DNA of 41,726 bases from Caldithrix sp. (GTDB lineage: Bacteria > Zhuqueibacterota > Zhuqueibacteria > Oceanimicrobiales > Oceanimicrobiaceae): assembly GCA_004356825.1 (NCBI GenBank), contig SMXC01000167.1, positions 1 to 41,726 on the forward strand. The letters are read 5' to 3'. Made by a program: the position numbers and the translations under genes. The notes below the pieces were generated by a model. That model saw only the letters and a list, made by a program, of their open reading frames with translations. It did not search any database and was not told the DNA's origin. Positions 1 to 41,487 of the stretch are shown here, in pieces; positions within the stretch are counted from its first letter, which is position 1, and each line of letters begins with the position of its first letter.

Positions 1-501
1 AAAATTATTGCTATCATCAACAGATATAATCGCACCTTGAGTGACAGCTCAAAATACGCCATTGCCAGTGAAATTCAAAAAATGAGCGTTAAATATTCAA
101 ACTTGGATATAAATCTGATTTGTGCGACCATTACTCATGAAAGCGCCCGGAGTTGGCAGCCGGAAGTTGTGTCCCACGCAGGAGCTTTGGGATTGATGCA
201 AATTATGCCATATACCGGAAAACTTCTTGTCAAGCATGAAGGGATTAAGTGGACATCTTCACGAGAGGTTCTGTTTAACCCGATTATCAATATAAGAATA
301 GGCTGCCGTTATCTTTCCATGTTGATCGAACTTTACAGTGTTGATGGCGGGCTGGCCGCTTATAACGGCGGGCCAAGACGAGCTAAAAAATGGATCGCCA
401 GCGGACGTAATTATGACGTTTTGTTTGAAGAAACACGTTATTATGTCCCTGCAGTTTTGGAATTATACGATCATTACAAACGCAGAACTTTGTTAGATTA
501 G
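1..501 (+). CDS. Lytic transglycosylase, SLT (goose-lysozyme-like) domain; 5' end outside the window
   Basis: THESARSWQPEVVSHAGALGLMQIMPYTGK ... GCRYLSMLIELY...GLAAYNGGPRRAKKW is the SLT catalytic pattern (E-S, GLMQIMP, AYNGG). Reading frame is open to base 1, so the TTG at 37 in the ORF track is probably not the true start. Confidence 0.85.
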   Translation, partial: KIIAIINRYNRTLSDSSKYAIASEIQKMSVKYSNLDINLICATITHESARSWQPEVVSHAGALGLMQIMPYTGKLLVKHEGIKWTSSREVLFNPIINIRIGCRYLSMLIELYSVDGGLAAYNGGPRRAKKWIASGRNYDVLFEETRYYVPAVLELYDHYKRRTLLD

Positions 502-514
502 GTTAGAATAGGAT

Positions 515-2227
515 ATGCCAGTAAAACCGAACCAGTTGTCAATTGAAAGTTTTCGTAACGAGCTTATAAATCGTTTTTTTCATCCGGATAGTTACTTTAT
601 GCATTGTTTCAGCCACCACCTCCAGGCTTTTCTAGATAAGGGTGGCAACTCAAATAATAATGAGTATCTGCTCGTTGGAAATTTAATGGATAAACTCGTC
701 GCTTCTCAAAATGCCATTGAGGATCTCGAGTCTGTTTTAGCACTGCAGGGTTTTGAGTCGTTCAATGAAAGACTGTCAAAAGGAATAGATTACCTCTATG
801 AGTCCGACCTGGAACCTGAAAAAATGAAAATCGAGATTGAGAGCTTGGCGCAATCCATGTTCAGTGGCGCTGTAGCTGCTCTGCAAAATAAAGAAAGTAA
901 TGACGAAATAACAAGCCTGCTTGGTATTAATCGTACACCGACAGATAATGTGGATGAGTTAGAGGTACAAGAGCCATCTTCTGAAGGACCAGGATTAACG
1001 AAACCGGAATTCTCAGTGGAAGAGATAGAAGACATGGATGCCACTCCTCAGAATCTATTAGAAGAAAAAGATTTTCTTCTGCCTTTGGATGAGTGTAAGG
1101 AAGCAAACCCCGGTAAATCGGAAGTTAGTTTGGTTGAAGAAGATGGCTCTCGTAACTTTGCTCAGGACGATGTTATCCTGGTTAATACAGAGATAAATCA
1201 GAAACCCGAAAGCGTTTTTGCAGGCTTTCAGACGGCGGTTGGAAATCAAATAGAACAATTACAGAATAAAATTGACCTTCTGAGTTCCAAGAACGGCTTG
1301 CTGGAATGTGATGGAATTTTTGAAAGTATCATTTCCAGTTCGATGATTTATGGTTTTGATGCTGTTGAAGAAGTCGCCGAAAAAGCAAGAAGATTTTTAT
1401 CGAAGGTTAGCAGGCAGTCAGCTTTTGACAGCAATCGTGTAACCTCAGTATTGACAAAAACAATCAGTCTTCTTAAGCGGACTCTTGAAAACGGCCCGGA
1501 TAACGTCGACAAACAAGCAATCTCGGATTTTTCTCAAAACCTGCTGAACCAAGAAACGATTCTGCCTGCCAAAAAAGAAAATTGCGCGACTCGAACACAA
1601 AGCGATGAAAAGAAAGATGAGCCGGGTCCTTCGCGGTCCTCCAGCCTTGAGGAATTTAAACTGCCTGGCGAGGATGAGATAGCTAGCTTATTAAGCGAGA
1701 TATCTGAAAACTGTCCACTTCAAAAAGACGAAGGTCTGCAGCCGGACTCGCCAGAACCGTCAGAGTCGGAAGTTTTAGTTATGGATGTTCCACAGGTAGT
1801 GCCCGGAGACTTGCTTTCAAGTTATAAACAGCAAGCTAAGCTCTATTTTGACGTGATTGAGCAAGCGTTGAATCTTCTTGAGGGGCAACCCGGCCATAAA
1901 ACTGCTCTTGAGGATGTTGAGCTAGCTTGCAATTCACTCTACGGTCTTGTATTGAAAATGGAACTGGACTCCATTGCGAAAACCCCCGAGCTGATCGCTG
2001 AACTGATTAGAAATATCATAGGTAATAGATATTCGCTGTCTAAAAACGAGCATGGCTTACTCAAGAATTCACTCCGGGATTTCAGGAATATATCCAACGT
2101 AATTGACGTGGAAAGGCAAGAATTTAAGGAAAACATCGTTTCATTACAAACCTTGAATTCAAAAATTTCAATGAGTCGGTCTTCATTTCGTAAAGCCAAA
2201 AGTATAGACAGATTTAAAATGAGATAA
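515..2227 (+). CDS. Acidic multi-domain protein with repeated HPt-like helical segments lacking the phospho-His
   Basis: 570-aa ORF, ATG after GGAT. Segments IISSSMIYGFDAVEEVAEKARRFL and ACNSLYGLVLKMELDSIAKTPELIAEL fit the HPt helix pattern; long acidic/Ser-Pro linkers between them. Confidence 0.6.
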   Translation: MPVKPNQLSIESFRNELINRFFHPDSYFMHCFSHHLQAFLDKGGNSNNNEYLLVGNLMDKLVASQNAIEDLESVLALQGFESFNERLSKGIDYLYESDLEPEKMKIEIESLAQSMFSGAVAALQNKESNDEITSLLGINRTPTDNVDELEVQEPSSEGPGLTKPEFSVEEIEDMDATPQNLLEEKDFLLPLDECKEANPGKSEVSLVEEDGSRNFAQDDVILVNTEINQKPESVFAGFQTAVGNQIEQLQNKIDLLSSKNGLLECDGIFESIISSSMIYGFDAVEEVAEKARRFLSKVSRQSAFDSNRVTSVLTKTISLLKRTLENGPDNVDKQAISDFSQNLLNQETILPAKKENCATRTQSDEKKDEPGPSRSSSLEEFKLPGEDEIASLLSEISENCPLQKDEGLQPDSPEPSESEVLVMDVPQVVPGDLLSSYKQQAKLYFDVIEQALNLLEGQPGHKTALEDVELACNSLYGLVLKMELDSIAKTPELIAELIRNIIGNRYSLSKNEHGLLKNSLRDFRNISNVIDVERQEFKENIVSLQTLNSKISMSRSSFRKAKSIDRFKMR

Positions 2228-2267: not shown

Positions 2268-3911
2268 ATGTCAAACAAAACTAACGCTGAAATAGATAAG
2301 GAACTGGAAGAAGTCCTCGGTTCACACAAAACTAAAATTCGTATTATCGGTACGGGTGGAGGAGGCAATAACACAGTCACCCGTCTGCTAGAAGTGAGCG
2401 TTAGTGAAGTTGATGTGATTGCAGTGAACACTGATGCGCAGGACTTACTCTATGCGAAAGCCGATCACAAAATTTTGATTGGCAGGAATATTACGAACGG
2501 CCTGGGAGCTGGCAGCGATCCCCAAAAAGGTGAAGATTCAGCAAAAGAAACCATTGAAGAACTGGAGGAGATTCTTTCTGGTAGCGATATGGTATTTATC
2601 ACCTGCGGTCTGGGCGGCGGCACGGGAACAGGGTCGGCGCCGGTCATTGCTGACATTGCAAAGAAAAGCGGTGCGCTGACCATAGCTGTGGTGACGTTAC
2701 CATTTAGTGACGAAGGCATTGTTAGATGGGAGAATGCTCGAAAAGGACTTGAACAACTTCAGAATAGCGTTGATACGGTCATTGTTGTTCAGAATGACTT
2801 GCTTTTAGATTTAGTCCCGGATATGCCGCTAAATGCTGCTTTTAGATTTGCCGACGAAATTTTAGTCAATGCAGTTAGAGGAATTACTGAACTAGTAACA
2901 GAGCGGGGCCTGGTGAATCTCGACTTTGCCGATGTGAAAACCATCATGCAAAATGGCGGCCTTGCGATGATTGGTTTAGGGGAAACTGAATCGCAGGATG
3001 ATATCGAAGAAGCAGCCCAAAAGGCCCTGCAAAACCCGCTGCTTGATATTGATATTACCGGCGCGAAAAGCGCTTTAATTCACATAACCGGCGGTCAGGA
3101 ACTGTCTTTAAAATCTGCGAAAACTATTATGAAAACTGTCGCTGAGCGTCTGGATCCATCGGCAAAAATTATTTGGGGAACTCGTATCGATGAATCGATG
3201 GGTCACTCTCTGCGAGTAATGCTTATTGTGACTTGTTTGAAATCTGAGAAATACATAACGTCTAAGACCGACCGTTTCCGAACCGAATCGACTCCGAACT
3301 TCGAAATAAGTGATGAATCACACGGGCAGGATGAAACTACCGAAGTCGAAGTGATTGAGGCTTCAGAACAAGCCTCTTCACTCCACTCCTCTAAATCGCA
3401 AAAAGTGTTTTCCGAAATTTTCATGGAAGAGGCCGAAACCGACATTTCAGTTATGGCAGAGGCTATTGGCAACTTAGACGCAAAGAGCGATAATAAGAAA
3501 TATCTTCAGGATATTAGCAACTCTGCTTCGTCGATTTATAGTTCATCTGAATTGTTTGACTATAATAAAATATCAGAATTTGCAGAACTTCTTGGTGAAC
3601 TGACAAAAGATGGATTAAATGGCAAACTCATTCTGTCGGAAGAGGTTCTGGAATTATTTCAACAAATGCCGCCGGCGCTAAGAAATGCCATAGACGGCAA
3701 TGAACAAGACCTCGAAGCAATAAAGCTAAAGATTCTGACATTACTAGACTCCGTTACCCAATCGGGTGATACAGATTCGGCTCAGGATTTTGATTCCGCT
3801 GATGAGGAACCTGAGATTCTTAATGAATCCGAAGCCCGGGCAGATGAAATTGAGGATCTTGAGTATTCAAATGTTCGTGAAGCGGTAAAATATTTCGATA
3901 AGCTTCTTTAA
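2268..3911 (+). CDS. FtsZ-family tubulin-like GTPase, archaeal-type core, with ~215-aa C-terminal extension
   Basis: IRIIGTGGGGNNTVTRL, AVNTDAQDLL, GLGAGSDPQKG, MVFITCGLGGGTGTGSAPVIADIAK (tubulin signature), VVTLPFSDEG, NLDFADVKTIM, IIWGTRIDES; C-terminal acidic linker plus helical domain. Confidence 0.93.
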   Translation: MSNKTNAEIDKELEEVLGSHKTKIRIIGTGGGGNNTVTRLLEVSVSEVDVIAVNTDAQDLLYAKADHKILIGRNITNGLGAGSDPQKGEDSAKETIEELEEILSGSDMVFITCGLGGGTGTGSAPVIADIAKKSGALTIAVVTLPFSDEGIVRWENARKGLEQLQNSVDTVIVVQNDLLLDLVPDMPLNAAFRFADEILVNAVRGITELVTERGLVNLDFADVKTIMQNGGLAMIGLGETESQDDIEEAAQKALQNPLLDIDITGAKSALIHITGGQELSLKSAKTIMKTVAERLDPSAKIIWGTRIDESMGHSLRVMLIVTCLKSEKYITSKTDRFRTESTPNFEISDESHGQDETTEVEVIEASEQASSLHSSKSQKVFSEIFMEEAETDISVMAEAIGNLDAKSDNKKYLQDISNSASSIYSSSELFDYNKISEFAELLGELTKDGLNGKLILSEEVLELFQQMPPALRNAIDGNEQDLEAIKLKILTLLDSVTQSGDTDSAQDFDSADEEPEILNESEARADEIEDLEYSNVREAVKYFDKLL

Positions 3912-3935
3912 TTGCCTCTAATTAGACAGAAAGGC

Positions 3936-4496
3936 ATGAACTCGCATTTTAAACAAACCCAGCCATTTCAAAAATCCTATGTTCGTAAGGTGATGCGTGG
4001 ACTGAAAAATATAACGATTGCTCTTGCTAAAATGCATGACAACCCGAACGATCGTGAAGCCGCTATTGAAATTCGGGGAATCGCCAAAGCGATTTCAGAA
4101 CTTGCAATGATTCACGGCTATCATGGCGTGGAAAGCATTGCTCGCAAAATTTCTACTTCATTTAAATGTTCCAGGGTTAAATCAGATGCTGATTTTCTTT
4201 CTAAAATCGAACTAGCTATTAAGGGCATTCATCACGTCGTTGCAATGGAAGACGGGATTGAAAGTAAACTAATTATTGAAAAAATAACTCGGGCTGGCAA
4301 AGGGTCCCCTAGCCAAATTTCAAGTCTCGATGAACTTAGTGAAGAACAGCGCCGAATGGTTGAATCGGAAAGCGATGCGAAACTTCTATTTGATATAAAA
4401 GAGAGCGATTTTTTGAGTCATCTTCCAAGTGGGTTCATCCCCGAAAATCTAAAAGCTATATCAGAACGAAGACCAGCAGTTAAGATACCTTCCTAA
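3936..4496 (+). CDS. Small HPt-like helical protein (His-less)
   Basis: ORF 3912..4496; ATG at 3936 preceded by AGAAAGG is a better start than TTG 3912. REAAIEIRGIAKAISELAMIHGYHGVESIARKISTSF resembles the HPt core. Follows the FtsZ-like gene directly. Confidence 0.6.
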   Translation: MNSHFKQTQPFQKSYVRKVMRGLKNITIALAKMHDNPNDREAAIEIRGIAKAISELAMIHGYHGVESIARKISTSFKCSRVKSDADFLSKIELAIKGIHHVVAMEDGIESKLIIEKITRAGKGSPSQISSLDELSEEQRRMVESESDAKLLFDIKESDFLSHLPSGFIPENLKAISERRPAVKIPS

Positions 4497-5000: not shown

Positions 5001-5031
5001 GCTTTGGTTGAAATCATATTCTGGAGACTCA

Positions 5032-6504
5032 ATGAGCAAAAAAGCTGTCAGCGAAGCGTTAACTTTTGATGATGTTTTACTGGTGCCGGATTATTCGGAG
5101 GTCCTGCCCAAAGAGACAGATACCAAAAGCTGGTTAACTAAAAATATTCAATTGAACCTGCCTCTGGTTGCCGCCGCGATGGATACGGTAACAGAATCCG
5201 GGTTGGCGATTGCCCTGGCGCGCGAAGGAGGCATCGGGATTATTCACAAAAACATGTCTATTAAACAGCAGGTACAAGAGGTGGATCGCGTCAAGCGTTC
5301 GGAAAGCGGTATGATTTACGACCCAATTACTTTAACACCGGTGCACAAAGTTAAAGAAGCCATGTCGCTCATGAACCGGTATAGAATTTCAGGAATTCCC
5401 ATTGTCGAAGGCTCAAAATTGGTGGGTATTTTAACCAATCGTGACTTAAGATTTGAAGTCGATACTGAATTAGAAATTAAGCAGGTGATGACAAGCAGAA
5501 ATTTAGTGACGGTTCCGGCCGGCACTACCTTGGAGCAAGCTGAGAAGATCTTGCAAAAAAACCGCATTGAAAAACTCCCGGTGGTCGATGGCGACAACAA
5601 TCTGAAAGGTTTAATTACGGTGAAAGACATCCAGAAAAAACGCCTTTACCCAATGGCCGCGAAAGATGAACACGGGCGGCTGCGAGTTGGGGCTGCTGTC
5701 GGCGTTGCAAGCGATACTCTGGAGCGGGTGCAGGTACTGGATGATGTACAGGTAGATGTTATTGCAATCGATACTGCCCACGGACATTCAAAAGGAGTGA
5801 TTGAAACGGTCAAGCTGGTGCGGCAGAAATATCCGCAAGTTGAAATTATTGCCGGGAACGTTGCGACGGGCAAAGGGGCACAAGCTTTAATTCAGGCAGG
5901 CGCAAATGCTATAAAAGTTGGGATGGGACCGGGCGCAATTTGTACTACTCGAGTGGTTGCCGGTATCGGGATGCCGCAGATCACAGCAATTATGAATTGC
6001 GCTGAAGTCTGTCAAGAGCACCGGATTCCTCTAATCGCAGATGGCGGAGTAAAGCAGACCGGTGATATCCCGAAAGCGATTGCCGCAGGAGCGGACACGG
6101 TTATGATTGGCAACTTGTTTGCCGGAACCGAGGAGAGCCCAGGCGAGAAGATTTATTTGGGAGGCAGAAGCTTTAAAGTTTACCGGGGTATGGGGTCCCT
6201 GTCCGCAATGCAACATGGGAGCAAAGACAGGTATTTTCAGGAAGGGGAGAAGGATTTGCGAAAATTAGTTCCCGAAGGAATTGAAGGCCGGGTTCCTTAT
6301 CGTGGAAAATTGAGTGAGGCGGTTTATCAAATGGTTGGCGGTCTAAAAGCGGCCATGGGGTATTGCGGCACAAAGAATATTGAAGAACTCCAGAAAAAAG
6401 GTCAATTTGTCAAGATTACAGGTGCCGGCTTAATGGAGAGTCATCCTCACGATATTGTCATTTCCCGCGAGGCGCCCAATTATAATATCGATCGAATTCA
6501 ATAA
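5032..6504 (+). CDS. guaB: Inosine-5'-monophosphate dehydrogenase
   Basis: [17 protein letters not shown], tandem CBS region, [46 protein letters not shown] 5032 with upstream GGAG preferred over 5008. Confidence 0.97.
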
Positions 6505-40141: not shown

Positions 40142-40337
40142 TATTTTAACCTCAGTTCGACGTAAGGCATAAAATGAGGATCAAAGACCAAAAACGACCC
40201 GCCCAACGTCATTTCTGCGGATTGTAGGCAGGAATCTTTTCGTTTTTACAAGTAGATTCCGGCTTAAAGATTGCCGGAATGAAGGTATATGTAAGTCTTC
40301 GGTCTTTGATTTCTTATAGCGAACTCAGGTTATTTTA
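40142..40337 (-). repeat. ~196-bp dispersed MITE-like repeat, copy 2
   Basis: Reverse complement matches 4804..5000 at about 90% by eye. Confidence 0.85.
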
Positions 40338-41487
40338 CCAACAACATTTTGGCCACTTTTTGAAAACTACCTGTTTCAAGTCGGTAGAGATAAAGTCCGC
40401 CGGGCACAGGTCGTCCTGCCTCATTGCGTCCATCCCAAACTGCCGAATACTCACCCGCGGCAAGCTCCTTTTGAACAAGCGTGCGAACCGGCCGGCCAAT
40501 TACATTGAATATCGTCAGCTTGACTTGTGAGCGTTGAGGGAGCCGGTAGGTAATCGTGGTCAGGGGATTAAACGGATTTGGATAATTCTGCGCCAGCGAA
40601 AAAGCTTCGGGCAATTCAGCCGCAACCGCCAATGTCGTTGATTCCACCGTAGTTACCAGGCCGTCTCTTGTTGATGCGCCGACTAAATCATTGAGAAAGC
40701 CTGTAAGTTGTAACGTGCCGCTGCCCGAGGCTTCAGTTGTCTGAAATACTACTTTAAGCAAAATTCCGGACCCTGTTGCTGGCATGGCCTCAAATCCGCC
40801 AATTATGATTTGACCATCGGTGTTCTCACTACAACCAGTGGCGAACCAACCATCCGTAAGGGTTTCTGCCGCATCGCAATTCATGAAATCAAGTAAATCT
40901 GCAGGATAGTTGAGCTTCAATCCAAAAGCATCTATTGAGTCGGAAGCTGGATTTGTCAGGAAAAGTGGGATGCTGATAAGAGTATCATCCGCATTCCATT
41001 TAACGCTGTACGGTGGCCTGAGATCAAATTCGTCGATTATCTCAACCATGCCATCCGTCGTTGCCGCCGTCGTTAGATCATCGCCAAAATCTCTGAGTTG
41101 CAACGTCCCGTTGCCCGGGACTTCTGTTGTCTGAAATACTACCTTAATCAAAACTCCCGACTCTGTTGCTGGTGTCGTATGAGATCCGCTAATTGTAATT
41201 TGACCTTCTGTGTTCTCATTGCAATCAACCGTAGTCCAACCAGCCGTAAGTGTTTCTGCAGGGTCGCAACTCATGAAATCGAGTAAAACTGCCGGATAGT
41301 TGAGTTTCAATCCAAAAACGCCTATGGCTTCGGAAGCTGGATTAGTCAGATTTAATCGAATTTCGACCGTTTGACCGGGCATTTGCTGCAAAAGTATGTT
41401 TGCCGGATCAAGCTCAAGCTGACCCATTGCTTGCAACGAGCAAAAACACTGGAACACACCAAGAAGTAAAAGACATTTTTTATACAT
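40330..41487 (-). CDS. Secreted protein with two cohesin-like repeats and a T9SS-type C-terminal sorting (FlgD-like) domain
   Basis: Signal peptide; repeats TNPASEAIGVFGLKLNYPAVLLDFMSCDPAETLTAGW / TNPASDSIDAFGLKLNYPADLLDFMNCDAAETLTDGW; C-terminal FSLAQNYPNPFNPLTTITYRLPQ...GGLYLYRLETGSFQKVAKMLLVK. Confidence 0.85.
   Translation of the reverse strand: MYKKCLLLLGVFQCFCSLQAMGQLELDPANILLQQMPGQTVEIRLNLTNPASEAIGVFGLKLNYPAVLLDFMSCDPAETLTAGWTTVDCNENTEGQITISGSHTTPATESGVLIKVVFQTTEVPGNGTLQLRDFGDDLTTAATTDGMVEIIDEFDLRPPYSVKWNADDTLISIPLFLTNPASDSIDAFGLKLNYPADLLDFMNCDAAETLTDGWFATGCSENTDGQIIIGGFEAMPATGSGILLKVVFQTTEASGSGTLQLTGFLNDLVGASTRDGLVTTVESTTLAVAAELPEAFSLAQNYPNPFNPLTTITYRLPQRSQVKLTIFNVIGRPVRTLVQKELAAGEYSAVWDGRNEAGRPVPGGLYLYRLETGSFQKVAKMLLVK

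Follow-up and report, generated by a model that had tools for sequence, protein, structure and literature searches.

Three consecutive genes of a Caldithrix genome, which belongs to a little-studied KSB1/Caldithrix-like group of bacteria, encode four domains with the fold of a CheA P1-type HPt domain, and none of the four has the phospho-accepting histidine. Two of them (D2 and D3) lie in a 570-aa protein, HPT570, and one in a 194-aa protein, P194; the remaining one forms the C-terminal tail of a second FtsZ, FtsZ2, whose GTPase motifs are intact. The cluster is syntenic with genes for receivers (REC) that retain their Asp. The genes lie at the start of the window, that is, the whole stretch of 41,726 nucleotides that was analysed (contig SMXC01000167.1), and their features are as follows.

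1..501, + strand: lytic transglycosylase (SLT), conserved upstream neighbour, 5' end truncated by the contig edge
515..2227, + strand: HPT570, 570 aa, with helical D1, an acidic linker, pseudo-HPt D2, an acidic LPGED(D/E) linker and pseudo-HPt D3
542..934, + strand: D1, conserved non-HPt N-terminal domain, residues 10-140, seven helices
1205..1558, + strand: D2, His-less CheA-P1-type HPt fold, residues ~231-348; His column Glu270, codon 1322-1324
1655..1714, + strand: conserved linker motif (K/Q)LPGEDxxELxxLIxEIS, residues ~381-400, in a disordered stretch, weakly helical
1802..2185, + strand: D3, His-less CheA-P1-type HPt fold, residues ~430-557; His column Asn473, codon 1931-1933
2268..3911, + strand: FtsZ2, second FtsZ, 547 aa, archaeal-type GTPase core, GGGTGTG and NLDFAD intact
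3390..3764, + strand: C-terminal pseudo-HPt of FtsZ2, residues 375-499; His column Ser421, codon 3528-3530
3873..3908, + strand: short amphipathic C-terminal helix of FtsZ2 (VREAVKYFDKLL), after an acidic linker; recognisable in many orthologs
3912..4496, + strand: P194, pseudo-HPt protein, 194 aa, HPt at residues ~16-112, closest to D2
4389-4403, + strand: conserved F(D/E)IKE motif of P194, downstream of its HPt domain
5008..6504, + strand: downstream neighbour in close relatives, which from its sequence we take to be IMP dehydrogenase

HPT570, FtsZ2 and P194 are encoded on one strand, 40 bases separating the first two genes and 0 bases the last two. The second gap becomes 24 bases if P194 starts at the ATG at 3936, which is likelier than the doubtful TTG at 3912.

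HPt-type domains without the histidine

HPT570 gave no match over the cut-off in Pfam or NCBIfam, a V-SNARE hit at E 0.07 being due to chance; therefore, single-sequence HMM scans overlook these HPt domains. Profile-profile comparison (hhalign) with 22 canonical HPt domains of the same genome group, selected with a pattern that permitted H or N, aligned D2 over 87 columns at E = 6e-8 (94.7%; reversed null 0.09) and D3 over 83 columns at E = 2e-7 (93.8%; reversed null 0.3). The FtsZ2 tail and P194 matched the canonical domains at E 1e-10 and E 4e-6, respectively, and the reversed-sequence nulls were at least 0.01 for all four domains versus E 1e-10 to 4e-6. These comparisons assign D2, D3, the FtsZ2 tail and P194 to the HPt fold family, CheA P1 type (PF01627).

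An earlier note on this DNA had read at least two and perhaps three HPt repeats in HPT570, at residues 77-94, 272-295 and 471-497. The latter two fall within D2 and D3 and are borne out by the profile comparison, whereas the first (window positions 743-796), inside D1, stayed at null level (E = 0.02 versus a reversed null of 0.04). D1 was accordingly rejected as a third repeat, and its profile comparison failed against other domains as well; it is a confident bundle of seven helices in the AlphaFold2 model and contains the motif LINRFFxxxSYFFxC. The FtsZ2 tail and the HPt domain of P194, which likewise lack the histidine, had escaped the note.

The AlphaFold2 model of HPT570 consists of three helical domains of good confidence separated by disordered acidic linkers, and it matches CheA P1 (1i5n) with TMt 0.77-0.79 and rmsd 2.3-2.7 A (Foldseek). 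The top matches include the synthetic BRIC1/BRIC2, which are CheA-P1-like in sequence alignment, and CheA P1 is among the best PDB matches; the same listing holds complexes of CheA P1 with CheY-type receivers (2lp4, 3kyi and 3kyj). Linkers 141-230 (28% D+E, net -19) and 349-429 (23% D+E, net -11) are mostly disordered (pLDDT < 50). They are acidic, as the note had said, but their composition bias is mild rather than of strong low complexity. The conserved LPGED motif in the linker looks like a candidate docking peptide, and F(D/E)IKE of P194 like a further one.

The profile alignments confirmed Glu270 of D2 and Asn473 of D3 at the phospho-acceptor column, as the note had placed them. Histidine does not occur at this column in any ortholog of D2 (0/30), D3 (0/30), P194 (0/20) or the FtsZ2 tail (0/44), the HPT570 orthologs being taken from the same family and class; canonical HPt domains of the same genomes retain it. 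D2 orthologs carry L/E/Q/R/D/N/A/Y/G/W/K and D3 orthologs Y/N/S/A/K/Q/R/V at this position, and D3 mostly retains the SLKGxAxKLG signature surrounding the absent histidine. A misaligned conserved histidine was also rejected: across two columns on either side of the site in 80 sequences of D2, D3 and P194, no column held one consistently, and stray residues appeared at +1 only (1/30 D2, 2/20 P194). Since no sequence of the four domains carries the histidine, phosphotransfer or phosphorelay through them is very unlikely. The adaptor or scaffold role that the note had drawn from this loss is thus the best inference that the sequences allow. Elsewhere in the genome, a 275-aa frame with a weak, sub-cut-off Hpt match (G000:C108:4495-4743) might be another His-less HPt protein.

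Phosphate could instead be carried by a different residue, namely the His at +9 of D2 and P194, or Ser, Lys or Tyr at the former His position. At +9, His is frequent in D2 and P194 (MIHGY). However, many orthologs have Tyr, Gln, Asn or Ser there, the position lies about 2.5 turns off the phosphorylation site, and FtsZ2 tails, from which further conserved active-site residues are gone, have a conserved Phe in its place. We consider phosphate transfer by such a route extremely improbable.

Few pseudo-HPt systems have been described; those that we found are FimL and AHP6. FimL of Pseudomonas aeruginosa contains two HPt-like domains with Gln for His, and a role in localisation and binding with the Chp chemosensory system has been proposed for it (PMC3019171). 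By architecture, HPT570 resembles FimL in having two HPt-like domains with the histidine replaced (D2 and D3). Unlike FimL, which has no FtsZ link, the cluster domains are tied to FtsZ and their replacements vary (E/N/Y/S/L/Q/K). AHP6 of Arabidopsis has an HPt fold with Asn for His; it cannot relay phosphate, and still competes for relay partners and inhibits the relay (PMC7402358). The cluster domains may act in the same way, sequestering kinase or receivers to damp a working relay, with the FtsZ link being secondary. The D3 site is often Asn or Tyr, and canonical HPt proteins occur elsewhere in these genomes. AHP6 is a single-domain plant inhibitor outside cytoskeletal proteins, unlike the FtsZ2 tail. 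Against competition, the joining of one such domain to FtsZ and the build-up over three genes, with linkers, suggest assembly, and the cluster loci inspected contain no canonical HPt. A competitor role is therefore quite improbable in our judgement.

A second FtsZ with a pseudo-HPt tail

FtsZ2 scores 419.5 bits against the ftsZ equivalog cut-off of 295.2 (TIGR00065). Residues G116-G118, T119, G120 and G122 of the nucleotide loop GGGTGTG, and N217, D219 and D222 of the T7 motif NxDxxD, are invariant in the ortholog alignments. With GGGTGTG and NLDFAD intact, GTPase activity and polymerisation are expected.

The core is of the archaeal type. Its best structural and sequence match in the PDB is archaeal FtsZ1 from M. 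jannaschii (1fsz/1w58; 390 bits, 54% identity in structural alignment), whereas the best bacterial FtsZ reaches about 283 bits. Likewise, the FtsZ2 profile scored ~490-590 bits with the full-length archaeal FtsZ found and ~357-393 bits with the canonical FtsZ of the phylum. In an IQ-TREE tree of 67 rows, bacterial FtsZ, including that of the phylum itself, was split from archaeal FtsZ plus FtsZ2 (100/100). FtsZ2 formed a single clade (98/96) amid the archaeal rows; most of these were gathered via one motif, and the tree has some long branches, so that its exact sister is unsure. The archaeal FtsZ nearest to FtsZ2 in the tree belongs to archaeon UBA543 (contig DAPM01000018.1, L179:6001-6144); either this archaeon may stand close to the donor or sister lineage, or its MAG may be a mixture.

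The C-terminal region, residues 375-499, forms confident helices in the predicted model; among the Foldseek matches listed for FtsZ2, all places are taken by FtsZ cores. It matches Pfam Hpt at E 7.7e-5, slightly below the cut-off, which five ortholog tails exceed, and a match at E < 0.01 was obtained in 10 of the 20 aligned FtsZ2 orthologs. The tail-region profile found CheA P1 of Salmonella (2e-8), E. coli CheA (4e-8) and T. maritima CheA (8e-6) in the PDB, as well as BRIC1, a synthetic CheA-P1-like tandem (1e-18). Thus, CheA P1/Hpt (PF01627; 1i5n, 1tqg) shares its fold with the cluster domains and is alignable in sequence with the FtsZ2 tail (E 2e-8), but the cluster domains lack the phospho-His in every ortholog and have no attached kinase core. 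The loss extends beyond the histidine: Lys at +3, the second His at +19 and Glu at +22 are each present in 14/14 canonical P1 domains, versus 6/44, 0/44 and 19/44 FtsZ2 tails. The surface round the former His site is variable (entropy 2.6 bits at column 0 and 3.3 bits at +3). The fold core is conserved (L/I at +2, A at +6 and F at +9), which points to selection on something besides phosphotransfer.

FtsZ usually terminates in a short peptide that follows an unstructured linker. The terminal helix of FtsZ2 looks like a candidate stand-in for this peptide and a candidate docking peptide. In six loci of families f9 and f13 (L127, L134, L135, L138, L139 and L097), FtsZ2 reaches 670-900 aa and the linkers are longer. 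L097:8817-11783, a TPR/cytochrome protein, was rejected as a homolog and removed from the alignment. In family f2 (L140-L142, G008-G010; e.g. L141:5839-7401), the lytic transglycosylase is followed by a divergent protein of 510-527 aa with a Tubulin GTPase match and no FtsZ_C, next to which L141 has an aromatic amino acid lyase; this protein seems to be an FtsZ2 that has decayed or been repurposed.

The genome also encodes a canonical FtsZ of ~412 aa, on a different contig from the cluster (G000:C298; L143:1714-2952), with a bacterial-type core whose best match is B. subtilis FtsZ, and a similar C-terminal end. FtsZ2 differs from archaeal FtsZ1 in occurring in a bacterium, in standing beside a normal bacterial FtsZ and in carrying a C-terminal pseudo-HPt. 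The coexistence of the two raises the possibility that FtsZ2 is a second cytokinetic FtsZ that acts together with the canonical one at the septum, and whose tail replaces the lost FtsA/SepF/ZipA-binding peptide as membrane or divisome anchor. Such a role would agree with the canonical protein having its own C-terminal peptide and FtsZ2 lacking the usual one and often ending in a short helix, and the archaeon Haloferax divides with two FtsZs (PMC8187382). However, signalling genes abound in the FtsZ2 cluster, and the canonical ftsZ lies on another contig. Moreover, FtsZ2 was not found in ~30 of the 82 phylum genomes, including well-completed single-FtsZ genomes, and is therefore dispensable for division within the group. 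We regard a septal role as improbable.

Accessory proteins of the FtsZ superfamily with conserved neighbourhoods outside the division cluster, FtsZl1 and FtsZl2, have been described (Makarova and Koonin 2010, PMC2875224), in a paper whose main text mentions neither histidine nor response regulators. These are separate FtsZ-like families, unlike FtsZ2, which exceeds the ftsZ equivalog cut-off (419 bits). Searches of the open-access literature yielded no description of an HPt-tailed FtsZ, of a KSB1 FtsZ or of this cluster. Pseudo-HPt domains are a known kind, and their setting, an FtsZ tail and its cluster, is new within that literature, which is not proof of absence elsewhere.

Distribution and gene neighbourhood

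FtsZ2-type proteins occur in ~50 of the 82 phylum genomes, spread over many families. The named contigs with a match are KSB1 or Caldithrix/Calditrichaeota-type MAGs, apart from two records labelled 'bacterium' and one labelled 'Bacteroidetes'. Among the best 80 matches, with 196 relatives scanned, those extending into the tail came only from KSB1/Caldithrix-type MAGs and these vaguely or doubtfully named records, and the other matches listed were archaeal and limited to the FtsZ core. The contig scan for the fusion used a single core motif that deep families escaped, so other fusions may have escaped it too.

The usual gene order is histidine kinase, NtrC, REC-PATAN (DUF4388), ParA-like ATPase, single REC, lytic transglycosylase, HPT570, FtsZ2 and P194, followed by IMP dehydrogenase in close relatives. 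Over 45 FtsZ2 loci, the neighbours included REC in 31, HPT570 in 30, SLT in 28, NtrC in 27, and ParA and P194 in 22 each. The stretch read had no REC in 14/45 loci, several of which are contig ends; family f13 has a very different neighbourhood, without HPT570 or P194. Apart from a few exceptions, the receivers inspected retain the acidic pair, Asp, Thr/Ser and Lys. The REC-DUF4388 (PATAN) protein (L079:11767-12519 and orthologs) bears a signature like DDEEDLTWSISR, and the deep families have a shorter relative of it, consisting of REC only, immediately before FtsZ2. Towards the far end of the window, a frame at 40330-41487 on the minus strand encodes a protein that, like surface-exported proteins, has a cohesin-like domain together with a C-terminal FlgD-Ig domain.

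The four domains fall into two pairs of mutual closest relatives: D3 with the FtsZ2 tail (E 1e-14), both nearer each other than canonical HPt, and D2 with P194 (E 6e-18, hhalign). This pairing suggests a homotypic scaffold, in which D3 would bind the FtsZ2 tail and D2 would bind P194, cross-linking or bundling FtsZ2 filaments with receivers left unbound. HPT570, FtsZ2 and P194 are adjacent and on the same strand in most loci that have them, and the disordered acidic linkers carry the conserved LPGED and F(D/E)IKE motifs, both of which would suit such a scaffold. However, the pairwise similarity may simply reflect duplication and common descent. Isolated P1/HPt domains are mostly monomeric, which also counts against homotypic assembly. 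In nine deep-branching loci (families f18-f23) a tailed FtsZ2 follows kinase/NtrC genes with HPT570 and P194 absent from the locus, and in six of the nine a REC gene lies immediately upstream of FtsZ2. The tail is therefore useful without those partners, and we consider homotypic assembly possible, though on the unlikely side.

Receiver docking as the proposed function

Because no copy has a phospho-acceptor and the fold is kept, the domains appear to have been retained for binding. REC is the most likely ligand, since complexes of CheA P1 with CheY-type receivers have been solved and REC genes are persistent neighbours. We therefore favour, with confidence just short of an even chance, that the pseudo-HPts are docking modules that need no phosphorylation of their own, most likely for the neighbouring REC domains, and that they tie two-component signalling and ParA to an accessory FtsZ2 polymer. 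In this model, the cluster would constitute an accessory tubulin-like system around an FtsZ2 with an intact GTPase and polymerisation core, and HPT570 and P194 would be its partners, built of the same dead domain, linkers and short motifs. Each dead HPt would bind a receiver encoded upstream, in a manner dependent on the phosphorylation state of that receiver. The histidine-kinase/receiver pathway and the ParA-like ATPase would thereby set the place or time of FtsZ2 polymerisation, and the same inputs would determine the site of wall remodelling by the partner lytic transglycosylase.

Several observations speak against REC docking. The former His surface is variable, making a conserved REC contact at precisely this site less likely, and the usual driver of REC recognition, the histidine, is missing. 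Neighbourhood is no proof of binding, and the similarity between D3 and the FtsZ2 tail fits homotypic assembly equally well. Extended to its origin, receiver docking yields a doubtful, more far-reaching scenario: a bacterial lineage would have adopted an archaeal-type FtsZ and joined it to a dead CheA-P1 domain, the resulting second tubulin-like filament would be gated by the docking of phosphorylated receivers and cross-linked by the two partner proteins made of such domains, and ParA and the lytic transglycosylase would serve as spatial and wall outputs.

Taken together, second FtsZ proteins across the phylum form a family that carries a folded, His-less signalling domain, and in many genomes two further dead-domain proteins adjoin it, in a neighbourhood of receiver, ParA and transglycosylase genes. 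If receiver docking is true, two-component signalling would be physically linked to a polymer of the tubulin family without phosphotransfer to the polymer, and an archaeal-type FtsZ would work alongside the bacterial FtsZ in these organisms.
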